This document shows positions 2,759 to 20,005 of a stretch of 64,000 bases of DNA, one piece after another. The DNA comes from Limimaricola cinnabarinus LL-001 (GTDB taxonomy: Bacteria > Pseudomonadota > Alphaproteobacteria > Rhodobacterales > Rhodobacteraceae): positions 1 through 64,000 of the forward strand of contig NZ_BATB01000004.1 of assembly GCF_000466965.1 (NCBI RefSeq), in the 5' to 3' direction. The position numbers and the translations under genes were made by a program. Every line of letters begins with the position of its first letter. Position 1 is the stretch's first letter. The notes below the pieces were generated by a model. The model was not told the origin of the DNA. It did no database searches and saw only the letters and a list, made by a program, of their open reading frames with translations.

Positions 2759-4332
2759 ATGACCATGCGGATGACACAGCTGCTGCTGACGACGGCCCTT
2801 ACCCTGCCGCTGGCAGCCGGTGCACAGGCGCAGACCACCGATGCCACCTGTTCCGACCTCGAATTGCTGCTGACCGAAAACATGGCCGACGGCGTACCCG
2901 CCGATGCGCCGATGACCCAAGACGACATCAACGCGATCATCGCGGCCGAGAACGACGCGGAATGCGCCGTCGTCTTCGTCGAGCTTGAGCGGCTCGTCGC
3001 AGTCGAAGGCGATACCGCCGAGGGCGAGGCCGAACTGGCCGAAACCGAAACCGCGACCGTGCGCCTCGAGGACGAGGTCGTGATCGAAGGCATGGTGTAC
3101 CTCGAGCAGGAGCAGCCTTCGGTGTCCGTCGAGTCGGGTCAGACCGACGTGATGGTTTCGAACGCCACCCCCGACGTGACCGTGAACGAGGGCCAGCCCG
3201 AAATCCTGATCCGCCAAGCCCCGGCGACCATCACTATGGACATGCCGCAGCCGACGATCCGGATCGAGCAGCCGGCGCCCGAGATCATCATCACCATGCC
3301 CGACCCGACCGTCGACGTGGCCAACACCCAGCCGCAAGTCGAGATCCGTCAGGCCGATCCGGTTGTGACCGTGACCCAGGCCCGCCCGACGGTCGAGCTT
3401 GAGCTGCAGCGCGCCGAAGAAGGCTCCGAAGGCGGCTTCCAGGTCACCGATCGCGCCAGCGGCGAAACCTACGAGCCCGGCGTCGCCGGCGAAGCCCGCA
3501 CCATCGAAGAAGCGCAGGTTCAGCTGACCACTGTCGAGCCGACCATCACCTACGAAGAGAGCCGTGACGGCTCGAACGCCAATGTCTCGGTGCAGCGCGC
3601 CGAGCCGCAGATCCGTTTCGAGAGCGCTGAGCCGGTGATCGAGTTCACCCAAGCCGGTGAGCCGGTGATCGAAATGGTGCAGACCGGCGAGCCGGTGGTG
3701 ACCATCAACGAGGCTGCCGTCGAAGGTGAAGCCCCCGTCGAAGGTGACGCTGCTGCCCTAATGGAGCAGCCTGAAGCTGAGACCGAGTTGAACGAAGCTG
3801 AAGCCGAAGTCGAAGGCGCAGCGAGGAAGTCGAAGCCGAAGTCGCCGCAGCCGGCAATGAGATCGAAGCCGAGGCCGCTGAGGTCGAAGCCGAAGTCGAG
3901 GGCGAAGCTACTGAAGTCGAAGCCGAGGTCGAAGGTGAAGTCGCCGAAGCCGAAGCCGAAATTGAAGTCGTCGAAGCCGAGACCGCCGAGATGACCGAGG
4001 AAGCCACGATCGAGAGCACCGGTCCGATGATCGAGCGCGAAGGCTTTGCAATGGTTGCGGCCAACGAGATCGTGTTGACCGACCTCGAAGGGTCGACCGT
4101 CTATGGCATCAATGACGAGCGCATCGGTGACATCGGCGACATCATGGTCGACGATCAGGGCCAGATTCAGGAAGTGGTCGTCGAAGTCGGCGGGTTCCTT
4201 GGTCTCGGCGAAAAGCCGGTCGCGATCCCCTTCGACCAGATGAGCGTGCTGCGCTCGGAAGCCGGTGAAGTCCGCGTCTTCATCGAAGCCACCGAGGAAG
4301 AGCTCGAGTCGATGCAGTCGGTCGAGCAGTAA
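2759..4332 (+). CDS. Secreted PRC-barrel protein with nonapeptide repeats and acidic linker (apparent frameshift near 3822)
   Basis: The order is a signal peptide (residues 1-25, ending GAQAQ), a short helical region, a proline-spaced beta-repeat array (about 120-217), a variable region with more short TITYEES/VIEFTQA/VIEMVQT strands, a Glu/Ala/Val linker of repeated EAEVEGE units, and a C-terminal PRC-barrel ([22 protein letters not shown]...[22 protein letters not shown]). The linker changes frame near 3822 (GAAGGCGCAGCGAGG). Without correction the frame reads a spurious Lys/Pro-rich tail to 3994; restoring one base gives about 525 residues. GGAGA precedes the ATG. Function unknown; PRC-barrels often mediate surface or RNA/protein contacts. 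Confidence 0.82.
3116..3409 (+). repeat. Nonapeptide-repeat coding array in the PRC-barrel gene
   Basis: Within residues 120-217 the protein shows P-x-(V/I)-x-(V/I)-x4 units, mostly nine residues long: [53 protein letters not shown]. Alternating hydrophobic residues indicate stacked short beta strands. The repeat is clear in the protein; at DNA level the units are diverged. Confidence 0.75.
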
Positions 4333-16604: not shown

Positions 16605-16973
16605 ATGCAGATGGACCCGTCGCTTAACGTTCTGGACGGCCCGCTGGCGCCCTGCTCGACCGCGCCCCTGACCGGGTTCTTTCGGGATGGGCACTGCAAC
16701 AGCTGCGCCGAGGACCAAGGCAGCCATACGGTCTGCGCGGTGATGACGGCCGAATTCCTCGCCTATTCGAAATATGTGGGCAATGACCTGAGCACGCCGC
16801 GACCTGAGTTCGGCTTTGCCGGTCTGGCCCCCGGAGACAGCTGGTGCCTTTGTGCGGGACGTTTTCTGCAGGCCCATGACGAGGGCTGCGCGCCTCGGGT
16901 ACACCTTGCCGCCACCCACAAACGCGCGCTCGAAATCGTGCCGCTCGAGGTTCTGACACAACACGCAAGCTGA
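16605..16973 (+). CDS. DUF2237 family protein
   Basis: A 122-residue protein of the DUF2237 family, function unknown. Recognised by SLNVLDGPLAPCSTAPLTGF, FRDGHCNSCAEDQGSHTVCA, FLAYSKYVGNDLSTPRPEF and the Cys pair in PGDSWCLCAGRF. The conserved cysteines suggest a metal site or redox role (inference). AGGAGG stands 7 bp before the ATG at 16605, a strong reason to reject the upstream starts in the same frame. It is followed by a terminator-like hairpin shared with the convergent gene. Confidence 0.88.
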   Translation: MQMDPSLNVLDGPLAPCSTAPLTGFFRDGHCNSCAEDQGSHTVCAVMTAEFLAYSKYVGNDLSTPRPEFGFAGLAPGDSWCLCAGRFLQAHDEGCAPRVHLAATHKRALEIVPLEVLTQHAS

Positions 16974-16981
16974 CAAGCAAA

Positions 16982-17013
16982 AGCCCCGGCCGGATACTGT
17001 CCAGCCGAGGCTT
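16982..17013 (+). terminator. Probable bidirectional terminator
   Basis: Stem AGCCCCGGC / GCCGAGGCT with one internal mismatch, followed by TTTGTTT on the plus strand and preceded by AAAAG. It sits between the convergent DUF2237 and DUF7282 genes. Confidence 0.65.
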
Positions 17014-17060
17014 TGTTTGACGGGACCGGCCGCGAAGCCGATCCCGCTAAATCACCAAGA

Positions 17061-17201
17061 TCAACCAGCGTCGTCTTCGTCGCCTTCACCTTCGGTATCT
17101 TCACCCTCTTCGATGAAGCCTTCGGTTTCGGTGTCGTTGGGCTGGATCGTGGATTCGTCGGTGTCGCGGTAATCCGGATCGCTGCTGTCATCGGACTCGG
17201 C
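17061..17201 (-). repeat. Acidic-tail coding repeat, copy 1 (DUF7282 gene)
   Basis: Codes the last 46 residues and the stop. It is similar in DNA to 17856-17996, including identical runs such as TCACCCTCTTCGATGAAGCC and GTCGCGGTAATCCGGATC (plus-strand reading). The repeat is therefore a DNA duplication, not only protein convergence. Confidence 0.85.
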
Positions 17202-17693
17202 ACGGACTTCCGGTTCAGCAATGTCGGTCGAGGGCATGTCGTCGCCCGAGTGCATCATCATGCCTTCGGGAACGGTGAACATCGCCGTCACGGGCGCGTC
17301 GTTGACCATGACCGGCGTGTCGACGTCGGTCATGTCGGGGCCAAAATCATAGACGCCGTTGCCGTTCGACTCGACGTGCAGCATGGCCACGAGTTCGGTC
17401 CCGGCGGCAAGCGCCCCGGGCACCATCACGGTGACATCGGTGTTCTCGCCGGCCATGACCATGGCGTGTGCCAGCGATTCAGGCACCACCGGCTCGCCAT
17501 CGGTAACGGCGTGCAGGACGATGTAGCCGTCCTGGCGGGTGTTGATGCGGGGGAAGGTCACAGTGGTCTGCCCGTCCATCATCGACATCTGCATGGCCGT
17601 GGCATCGGTATCGATCATCATGTCGTCCTGCGCCATGGCGCCACCGGCCATGAGAGCGGTAAGTGCAGCGGCGCTGGTAAAGGTCTTGAGCAT
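17061..17693 (-). CDS. Secreted DUF7282-like domain protein with acidic C-terminal tail
   Basis: A 210-residue exported protein: signal peptide MLKTFTSAAALTALMAGGAMAQ, a Met/Asp-rich spacer, a single beta-rich domain of DUF7282 type (residues ~45-150: QDGYIVLHAVTDGEPVVPES, TDVTVMVPGALAAGTELVAM, VNDAPVTAMFTVPEG) and a 46-residue tail (from AESDDSSDPDYRD to DEDDAG). The tail is nearly the same as in the next gene upstream (36 of 46 identical by hand alignment) although the cores are unrelated. GGAGACG precedes the ATG. The length and charge of the tail suggest calcium or cation binding, or a surface role; function unknown. Confidence 0.8.
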   Translation of the reverse strand: MLKTFTSAAALTALMAGGAMAQDDMMIDTDATAMQMSMMDGQTTVTFPRINTRQDGYIVLHAVTDGEPVVPESLAHAMVMAGENTDVTVMVPGALAAGTELVAMLHVESNGNGVYDFGPDMTDVDTPVMVNDAPVTAMFTVPEGMMMHSGDDMPSTDIAEPEVRAESDDSSDPDYRDTDESTIQPNDTETEGFIEEGEDTEGEGDEDDAG

Positions 17694-17795
17694 TTTCGTC
17701 TCCAGAATGAGTTCGCTCCCCAACCCTTCAGACCCGATAGGGTTCGTTACCGTACGACACGTATTCGTGTGAACTAAACATAAAGACTGAAACAG

Positions 17796-17827
17796 AAAAA
17801 GGCCGACCGGAGGATATCCGGTCGGCC
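17796..17827 (-). terminator. Rho-independent terminator after the EF-hand gene
   Basis: Perfect 11-bp stem GGCCGACCGGA / TCCGGTCGGCC with a five-base loop, followed on the minus strand by TTTTTC. It separates the EF-hand gene from the DUF7282 gene, so these twins are transcribed independently. Confidence 0.9.
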
Positions 17828-17855
17828 CTTCAGATCAGGTATGGAACGACTGGCG

Positions 17856-17996
17856 TTACTGACCGTCGTCCTCGTCGCCTTCGCCGTCGCCGTCTTCACC
17901 CTCTTCGATGAAGCCTTCGGTCTCGGTATTGTTCTCTTGGATCGTGGATTCGGTGGCGTCGCGGTAATCCGGATCTTCGTCATCATCGGACTCGGC
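17856..17996 (-). repeat. Acidic-tail coding repeat, copy 2 (EF-hand gene)
   Basis: Second copy of the tail-coding segment, in the same orientation and reading frame as copy 1. It differs mainly in the Gly/Glu/Asp codons just before the stop. Confidence 0.85.
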
Positions 17997-18266
17997 GCGG
18001 GCTTCGGGCGAAGCCGGCTCGGTCGCCATGCTCATGCCGGTCGCGATGCGGATTTCCTGCACGCTCAGCATCATGTCGCCGTCGCTGTCGTCCTCCATCA
18101 GGATCGCCGCGCCGTCGGCGCCGAAGGCAGCGACCAGCTCGTCGTTCGACAGCATCATGTCACCGTCGGTGTCGACCTCGGCGAACGGAATGCTCTGCGC
18201 CGAAGCGGCCGAAGCACCCAGAACGAGGGCGGTCGTGGCAGCAGCGAAAGTCAGTTTGTTCAGCAT
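17856..18266 (-). CDS. Secreted EF-hand protein with acidic C-terminal tail
   Basis: A 136-residue exported protein: signal peptide MLNKLTFAAATTALVLGASA ending at SAQ, two calcium-binding EF-hand loops (DTDGDMMLSNDEL near residue 31 and DDSDGDMMLSVQEI near 58), then a 46-residue acidic tail (AESDDDEDPDYRD to DEDDGQ). The tail matches that of the neighbouring DUF7282 protein. Loop positions 1, 3, 5 and 12 carry Asp/Glu as needed for calcium. GAGAGGA precedes the ATG. Likely a periplasmic or extracellular calcium-binding protein; partner unknown. Confidence 0.85.
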   Translation of the reverse strand: MLNKLTFAAATTALVLGASAASAQSIPFAEVDTDGDMMLSNDELVAAFGADGAAILMEDDSDGDMMLSVQEIRIATGMSMATEPASPEARAESDDDEDPDYRDATESTIQENNTETEGFIEEGEDGDGEGDEDDGQ

Positions 18267-18360
18267 GTCGTGTCCTCTCAATTGTGAGTTCGTCGTCCAA
18301 CGTGTCATCCGACAACTCCGTTCGACGGCAAGTGATCACATAATCGTGAGGCCAAACAAA

Positions 18361-19586
18361 TCAAGCCGAGATATCAACGCCCAGATGCTTGGCGACAGTG
18401 AAGATGTCCTTGTCGCCCCGACCGCACATGTTCATTACCAAGAGATGGTCGCGCGGTAGATCCGGCGCGATCTTCATGACATGGGCCAATGCGTGAGACG
18501 GCTCCAGCGCCGGGATGATGCCTTCGAGCGCACAAGACAGCTTGAACGCCTCTAGCGCCTCCATGTCAGTGATCGCCACGTATTGCGCGCGGCCGATCTC
18601 ATGCAGCCAGGCATGTTCGGGGCCGATGCCGGGGTAATCGAGCCCGGCCGAGATCGAGTGACCTTCGAGGATCTGGCCGTCATCATCCTGCAGCAGGTAG
18701 GTCTTGTTGCCATGCAGCACACCGGGGCGTCCGCCGGTGAGAGAGGCGCAGTGCTGCATCTTCTGGTCGACGCCCTTACCGCCCGCCTCGACGCCGATGA
18801 TGTTCACCTCGCGGTCGTCAAGAAAAGGAAGAACAGCCCCATCGCATTCGACCCGCCGCCGATCGCGGCGATCAACGTGTCCGGCAGGCGCCCCTCGGCC
18901 TCGTGCATCTGCTCGCGCACCTCCTTGCCGATGATCGACTGGAAGTCGCGCACCATCGCCGGATAGGGGTGCGGGCCCGCGACGGTGCCGATGCAGTAGA
19001 AGGTATCGCGCACATTGGTAACCCAGTCGCGCAGCGCGTCGTTCATCGCGTCCTTGAGGGTGCCGCGCCCGGAGGTGACAGGGATCACGTCCGCACCCAG
19101 AAGCCGCATCCGGAACACGTTGGGCGCCTGCCGCTCCACGTCATGCGCGCCCATGTAGACCACGCATTTCAGGCCGAACTTGGCGCAGACCGTCGCGGTG
19201 GCGACGCCGTGCTGGCCTGCGCCGGTCTCGGCGATGATCCGGGTCTTGCCCATGCGACGGGCGAGGATGATCTGACCCAGCACGTTGTTGATCTTGTGCG
19301 CGCCGGTGTGGTTCAGCTCGTCGCGCTTGAGATAGATCTTGGCGCCGCCCAGATGCTCGGTCAGCCGCTCGGCATAATAGAGCGGGCTCGGGCGACCCAC
19401 ATAATGGGTCCACAGGTCGTTCATCTCGGCCCAGAAGGCGTCGTCGGTCTTGGCCTTCTCATATTCGGCCTCGAGCGACAGGATCAGTGGCATCAACGTC
19501 TCCGAGACGAAGCGGCCTCCGAATTCGCCGAAGCGGCCGCCCTCGTCGGGCCCGGCCATGAAGCTGTTGATGAGATCGTCCGCCAT
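18361..19586 (-). CDS. trpB: Tryptophan synthase beta chain (single apparent frameshift near 18827)
   Basis: Condenses indole with serine to tryptophan using PLP. The N-terminal part has [20 protein letters not shown], the PLP lysine region [33 protein letters not shown] and [13 protein letters not shown]. The C-terminal part has [27 protein letters not shown] and [15 protein letters not shown]. The frames part at GLFF[P][11 protein letters not shown], where CCC has become CC (GGG to GG on the plus strand, about 18827). Restored length is 408 residues, normal. GAGGAGG precedes the ATG. Probably a consensus error. trpF is 0.5 kb upstream. Confidence 0.93.
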
Positions 19587-19654
19587 GCGCTGAGCCTCCT
19601 CGCGTTCGGCGTCCGGACTACCCTTGCCGCGCCGCACGGTAAAGGCCCAAGGCG

Positions 19655-20005
19655 TCAGTCGCGGTCCCGGGGCGCGGCGTGGTTCCTGTCGCGCCAGCGG
19701 CGCAGCATGCCGTCGCTCCAGCGACGGCCCCGGATCAGCGTGGAGTTGACGCCCGGTCGCAGCATCGGCAAATCCACCGCCAGAAGCGCCAGACCGATCG
19801 GCAGCATCCACAGCCCGAAGAGCGGCAGGATCGCGGCGAAACCACCCAGTATCAACAGGATCCCCGCGGGAATGCGAATCCAGCGCGCATGGTCCGCCAT
19901 CAATCGTTCGGTCAGCCCGTGCAAACGTGGCGATCCGCCGGTCATGGCCCGCATCTGCCGGCGCAGCCGGGCCTTCTCACGCTCGTGATCGACGGGTTTG
20001 CTCAT
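19655..20005 (-). CDS. Small membrane protein with PGPGW-type transmembrane region
   Basis: A 116-residue protein with a charged N-terminus ([20 protein letters not shown]) and two close hydrophobic segments ([20 protein letters not shown] and [18 protein letters not shown]), followed by a basic tail. This matches small alphaproteobacterial inner-membrane proteins found next to trpB and sometimes mislabelled 'tryptophan synthase subunit beta like'. No catalytic motif is seen. The ATG at 20003-20005 is preferred to the one three codons upstream. It sits between trpF and trpB on the same strand. Confidence 0.7.

Follow-up and report, generated by a model that had tools for sequence, protein, structure and literature searches.

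Two neighboring genes in the analyzed window, a stretch of 64,000 nucleotides from Limimaricola cinnabarinus LL-001, encode proteins that end in nearly the same acidic tail on cores of different kinds, which raises the question of how one tail came to be on both and what it might do there. Both genes lie on the minus strand. Gene A (17064–17693, stop codon at 17061–17063) encodes 210 residues that comprise a signal peptide, a methionine-rich stretch, a DUF7282 β core and the tail; gene B (17859–18266, stop codon at 17856–17858) encodes 136 residues with a signal peptide, two EF-hand loops and the tail. The two syntenic markers are trpB on the upstream side (18361–19586, minus strand, its start placed by likeness to the L. 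cinnabarinus gene) and a convergent DUF2237 gene on the other (16605–16973, plus strand). The gene order trpB–B–A–DUF2237–pth, with both twins tailed, is present in all 8 Limimaricola genomes drawn, and the spacing between B and A is 162–183 nt, except for 410 nt in G007. In that genome the gap (locus L031) holds undetermined bases in the frame of L004 and is probably an assembly gap. The trpB of the window is itself split by a frameshift into two ORFs in different frames (18804–19811 and 18361–18807); the L. cinnabarinus trpB at L028 does not have this frameshift, which is perhaps a sequencing error. Terminator-like hairpins on the minus strand follow both genes, at 16972–17020 for A and 17797–17831 for B, and both fold strongly, the two energies being -27.7 and -27.9 kcal/mol, with z scores of -5.9 and -6.2. 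The consensus terminator scan called B's hairpin and missed A's, at 0.8 calls expected by chance; on folding, the hairpin that an earlier note had assigned to each gene is strong in both cases.

The tails of A (17064–17201, minus strand) and B (17859–17996, minus strand) each comprise 46 residues, of which 36 are identical, with net charges of -20 and -21, respectively. At the DNA level they lie within a direct repeat of 162 nt on the minus strand (17069–17230 and 17864–18025), each copy of which covers the tail plus some preceding codons, and the two copies are 80% identical without gaps. This DNA match exceeds dinucleotide shuffles at z 19 to 42 in all eight genomes, and the common tail described before is thereby confirmed in both its protein and its DNA likeness. 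A core slice of G004 also reached z 7.2 in the shuffle test, probably from tail-adjacent residues inside the slice; the 60 nt past the stop codons gave z 5.3 in G003 and 3.2 in G005. The tail is hydrophilic and acidic, and its final residues are GDEDDAG or GDEDDGQ. For the mature chains, the predicted net charge is -41 for A and -34 for B; the tail accounts for about -20 in each case, and neither chain contains lysine or cysteine. Across the genus, lysine is missing from 15 of the 16 mature twins, and the exception, the A protein of G003, has a single one; ten other proteins of the window average 3.6% lysine, which by simple composition gives p ~2e-5 for two lysine-free chains. A further acidic, exported-looking ORF with many QPxVxI near-repeats is found in the window at 2759–3994 on the plus strand.

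The two cores belong to different families. A is a member of DUF7282 (PF23951), with 77.1 bits against a Pfam cut-off of 27. B possesses two canonical EF-hand loops, DTDGDMMLSNDE and DSDGDMMLSVQE, both of which fit the 12-residue pattern D-x-D-G-D-x-x-x-x-x-x-E, and its best Pfam EF-hand score (EF-hand_1, 18.4 bits) is below the cut-off of 25.4. The EF-hand core suggests calcium binding by B. An assignment of B to XopAW (NCBIfam) was rejected at 23.4 bits against a cut-off of 120. BLASTP of the whole proteins yields a tail match that extends into the cores (49/114); with leader and tail removed, the cores show no likeness to each other (E 4.1), in agreement with the earlier reading of them as unrelated. 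AF2 models A as a β-sandwich and B as a pair of helical EF-hands, at low confidence (mean pLDDT of the two models 61.7 and 58.3), and in these models the acidic ends are mostly without regular structure. Sequence search of the PDB gave no match for A at E 0.1 and two calcium-binding proteins for B (E 1.6e-4 and 3.9e-4), and Foldseek against the PDB returned no match within E 0.001 for the model of A or that of B. The best VIA-align match for A is a C2 domain (Z 7.4, RMSD 4.2, 102 aligned), which is under the trust level of the tool, and we make no claim of C2 membership. Because the structure matches are weak, we limit the structural claim to a β-sandwich in A and a helical EF-hand in B. Six residues of A (H61, G82, M104, H106, D125 and P127) are kept in all 28 aligned DUF7282 homologues (L036–L065, from the best of 78 matching genomes, minus the Limimaricola loci L044 and L049). 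Of these residues, H61, M104, H106 and D125 would suit a metal site.

To define the distribution of the tail, searches covered 61 genomes (the own genome and relatives), 394 genomes of the family (one per genus, except two of Limimaricola) and 289 of the class, the latter two sets with a tail model of 17 rows. The tail was found in 8 of the 61 genomes, which are all 8 Limimaricola genomes drawn, with both twins tailed in each. Its carriers in these genomes are DUF7282 and EF-hand proteins only: besides the 16 twins, four genes elsewhere in the genus carry it, namely the DUF7282 paralogues L017, L018 and L020 and the EF-hand paralogue L019. In the own genome the model found two places only at E up to 10. 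The family set yielded the two Limimaricola members and three short matches (L023, L024 and L025; E 0.003 to 0.06), which were rejected: two are larger proteins, presumably type VI secretion TssA-like, with a chance EDPDYRD, and the third, in a short frame, matches only weakly. The class set yielded the own genome only, and a search of plasmids gave no match. Within the sampled genomes, the tail is thus a genus-level novelty on two core families. The idea of a general cassette that accepts many cores was accordingly too wide; a search for other cores, as the earlier note had advised, returned only these two core families, and descent of both from one core by a single tandem duplication was not found.

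Alignment of 17 tails, from which the three long-tailed paralogues L017, L018 and L020 were left out, revealed invariant residues at S3, D5, D8 to D13 (DPDYRD), E16, G28, E32 and D43, whereas identity elsewhere in the tail falls to about 50%. DPDYRD is therefore present in 17 of the 20 tail genes; the three DUF7282 paralogues without it have a longer acidic end.

A disordered tail is commonly expected to evolve together with the protein that carries it. Had the tail been copied once and then diverged, the expected distance would be the same for all A–B tail pairings across the eight genomes. The true pairing stands out: 29 of the 40,320 possible pairings are as good on DNA, 28 on protein and 167 on third codon positions, and without G004 (L. 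pyoseonensis) 29 of 5,040 are as good on DNA. The A and B tails of G004 share 87% DNA identity with each other and at most 67% with the other 14 twin tails, and they are sisters with a support of 100/100. With all genomes included, the AU test rejected a single clade of A tails (p 3.9e-6). The same pairing analysis served as a control on the 5' parts of the genes, where 29,936 of the 40,320 pairings were as good for the leader (-38 to -1) and 6,757 for the signal peptide. A single ancient copying, in which the likeness within a genome reflects parallel selection or shared base composition, would leave separate A and B tail clades, and with G004 removed the AU test did not reject them (p 0.159). 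Such a history is also in keeping with the weak synonymous signal, as codon choice at columns with the same residue is only weakly matched within genomes (687 of 40,320 pairings as good, or 471 of 5,040 without G004); a six-genome synonymous test gave 2/720 on a hand-picked subset and hence does not count as evidence. It sits poorly, however, with the identity of the G004 tails, with the third-position result and with leaders and signal peptides of the same genes that lack such matching, and we regard it as rather unlikely. Altogether, the matching of tails within genomes is decisive in one lineage, L. pyoseonensis; there is good support for one or more copying events beyond the first, and frequent conversion across all lineages is only suggested.

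The 5' ends of the genes behave differently from the tail. By eye, both proteins begin with a Sec-type leader ending in A-x-A-Q; compared with each other, their signal peptides give an E value of 0.009. Compared between A and B, the signal-peptide DNA exceeds shuffles at z 3.0 to 9.3 in 5/8 genomes and the 60-nt leaders at z 3.0 to 7.2 in 3/8. Unlike the tails, leaders and signal peptides are no closer within a genome than between genomes. Of the shared leader region and signal type described earlier, the excess over shuffles in some genomes and a common promoter-like element remain, and a within-genome excess does not appear. The same holds for the constant 5' ends of the proposed cassette: the promoter-like element is constant, and the leaders and signal peptides are not matched within genomes.

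The position downstream of trpB bears on the origin of the tail, and trpB positions were compared with the listed EF-hand and DUF7282 matches in 55 genomes, 32 of which had been chosen for such matches, so that the sample is non-random. Among the matches listed, an EF-hand gene lies directly 3' of trpB in at least four other genera (G093, G229, G316 and G342). The proteins of these four share the opening AQ-x-[IV]-x-F-x-x-[IV]-D and carry Asp-rich tails of other sequence. Two EF-hand relatives (L126 and L128) match no Pfam family at E 0.1, and their label derives from core-profile matches (E 3.7e-15 and 1.9e-18) and visible loops. DUF7282 genes with a double domain are situated directly 3' of trpB in G200 and G341. 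In G025, both genes are present at the same locus but swapped, DUF7282 coming first after trpB and EF-hand second. Beyond them lies a convergent DUF2237-like gene, with pth (recognised from its antisense frame alone) one gene further on; the EF-hand protein of G025 passes Pfam EF-hand_5 (28.7 vs 25.9). The DUF7282 proteins of G025, G200 and G341 stop with the domain and have no tail, whereas the EF-hand ones are acidic-ended. The DUF7282 proteins L096, L097, L099 and L100 of these three genomes are double, with an acidic or Ala-rich linker.

In 11 of 30 loci read by eye, the same spot is taken by small exported PepSY-like proteins whose ends are acidic or rich in Gly; 3 of the 30 have under 700 nt past trpB. 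The 11 loci are L108, L110, L112, L113, L119, L125, L128, L132, L133, L134 and L136; two of the proteins were scored against Pfam PepSY_2 (cut-off 24.3), one of which passes (31.5) and one fails (16.3). A LuxR-type regulator-like gene is next in L112, L119, L128, L134 and L136, and likewise in L127 without a PepSY gene; that of L119 matches the Pfam family GerE. Elsewhere, DUF7282 genes of the commoner subfamily lie near an ECF sigma factor gene in 4 of the 36 loci searched (L104 1849–3867 of G004, L047, L060 and L062), and 3 of the 4 also match an anti-sigma-like neighbor.

Since both genes occur at the trpB spot elsewhere without the Limimaricola tail, the tail would have been copied between existing neighbors. 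Both genes appear to be older than the tail, which probably spread from B to A. An alternative cassette history, in which the gene was duplicated once in tandem and one of the copies then received a new core, would account for two adjacent genes on the same strand with the same tail, and for the likeness of their leaders and signal peptides over shuffles. It conflicts with the presence of both core families at the locus in other genera without that tail, and with leaders and signal peptides that are no closer within a genome than between genomes, signal peptides being alike in composition anyway; we consider it the least probable of the alternatives. The origin by duplication and recombination proposed before thus stands in part: the copying of a segment is supported, and a tandem duplication of homologous cores is not.

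As to function, the earlier note had offered a sorting or surface-retention element. Such a targeting or retention signal would be read by a machine of its own, like those of C-terminal sorting systems, and a constant C-terminus on unrelated cores, with invariant residues that include DPDYRD in 17/17 aligned tails, would fit one. Tags such as PEP-CTERM or LPXTG combine a short motif with a hydrophobic helix and a basic C-terminal end. The tail described here has neither hydrophobic helix nor basic end, is confined to two core families and two places in the own genome, lacks DPDYRD in 3/20 genes, and is missing from the relatives at the same locus. A sorting role is, because of these tailless relatives above all, improbable. 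For a variant with type I secretion, the Sec-type signal peptide read by eye would argue against it, as type I secreted (RTX) proteins have no N-terminal signal peptide. Another alternative dispenses with any sequence-specific role and takes the tail as one of many acidic ends maintained solely for their charge under salty conditions. In other genera, EF-hand and PepSY-like proteins encoded at this locus also end in tails that are Asp-rich or otherwise acidic but differ in sequence, which agrees with this view, and the absence of DPDYRD from the three long-tailed paralogues, which are acidic all the same, strengthens a role of charge alone and weakens a sequence-specific tag. Conversely, the retention of DPDYRD in 17/17 aligned tails, while the rest drops to about half identity, speaks for more than charge, and we rate a purely electrostatic role as possible but short of the favored reading. 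It is equally improbable as sorting that the tail is a sequence-specific tag kept alike within each genome by repeated copying between these neighboring stress genes so that one partner, be it a metal ion, an envelope polymer or a protein, recognises both unrelated proteins. Taken together, a cation-binding and solubility arm would be the most likely function, followed by charge alone, with a sorting signal unlikely.

A common element precedes the genes: GAAC-N16-GGTT for A (17722–17745, minus strand) and GAAC-N17-CGTT for B (18299–18323, minus strand), both of which are EcfG-like. In the form GAAC-N16/17-NGTT, it is found 52 to 58 nt before the start in 20/20 tail genes (16 twins and 4 paralogues), which, given the relatedness of the genus genomes, amount to few independent cases. 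The element occurs 14 times in the window on both strands, these two included, or in about 1.2% of 110-nt stretches, and in 0/15 genes at the trpB spot in other genera, of which 8 are of the EF-hand or DUF7282 kind and 7 are PepSY-like. The published EcfG promoter is GGAAC-N16-CGTT, in which AAC hardly varies and the -10 is flexible, TGTT and GGTT being among its forms (PMC7083833). In 16/16 twins, C or T stands where GGAAC has its first G, and the -10 of A reads GGTT or TGTT instead of CGTT. An extended promoter pattern gave 19 sites in the own genome and 6 in the reversed control, figures that are pattern counts only. NepR scores above its cut-off in 8/8 genus genomes, and the region between nepR and the divergent gene upstream of it carries CGAAC-N17-GGTT and, on the opposite strand, GGAAC-N17-CGTT in the 6/6 genomes examined. 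In L161, nepR lies beside a putative sigma factor gene and a divergent gene that is putatively PhyR-like. Upstream of the promoter-like elements, a CAC...GTG dyad was seen by eye in most of the genus (~18336–18349 for B and ~17757–17770 for A, minus strand), with the form TCAC-N6-GTGA in B and ACAC...GTGT in A in most species, and is a possible regulator site. From these motifs, A and B probably belong to the EcfG (PhyR/NepR) general stress regulon, a claim weakened by a sigma-70-like site with 9/12 matches before B (18308–18281; the scan gave 2 sites in the region against 0.4 expected).

The reading that we favor, with somewhat better than even confidence, joins these observations: A and B would be Sec-exported acidic proteins of a stress regulon, with a tail that was copied onto A, copied again later, and acts as a cation-binding arm. 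The two genes would be transcribed separately, and their products, both strongly acidic, would be exported by the Sec route. Their cores would derive from two older families that sit downstream of trpB in several Rhodobacteraceae genera. In an ancestor of Limimaricola, an acidic tail, probably that of B, would have been copied onto the neighbor A, and at least one later copying would have made the tails of one genome alike again. The disordered tail, with its roughly -20 charges, would most likely serve as a polyanionic arm for cation binding and solubility beside metal-binding cores, and the site of action would be the periplasm or the outside of the cell.

Searches of the literature on DUF7282, C-terminal tail conversion, EF-hand proteins with PepSY or EcfG, and acidic tails yielded no description of such a pair. 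The nearest studied counterpart found is CaBP of Caulobacter vibrioides, like B a small exported EF-hand protein with a link to an ECF sigma factor and stress, a likeness drawn from its description only; the abstract mentions no shared tail (PMC13171946). CaBP differs from B in its three predicted EF-hand motifs, compared to two loops, and in SigV rather than EcfG as the sigma factor. Sphingopyxis granuli SGRAN_2273 is a putative EF-hand gene that depends on EcfG and has a GGTT -10 like that of A here; it is comparable to B in regulation only, with no homology implied (PMC7083833). Lanmodulin and LanP are small acidic metal binders with EF-hand or PepSY domains (PMC11845868), and in G229 a PepSY-like and an EF-hand gene lie together after trpB. 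Lanmodulin has four EF-hand loops, compared to two in B, a proline as the second loop residue of one or more EF-hands, where B has T and S, and 12–13 residues between adjacent EF-hands, compared to 16 in B (PMC11845868). By the two features tested, loop position 2 and spacing, B is not a lanmodulin.

The DUF7282 relatives read are likewise without the Limimaricola tail, while A passes the family cut-off, and this uncharacterised family gains a testable setting, with EF-hand neighbors after trpB and a possible stress promoter. With one tail on two folds, exchanged between them, the eight species form a small natural series in which a sequence-specific job of a disordered acidic tail can be weighed against an action by charge alone. 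Acidic exported metal-binding proteins and segment copying between neighbors are already known kinds; what is new here is a trpB locus common to other genera, the exchange of a tail between unrelated genes and a possible stress promoter.
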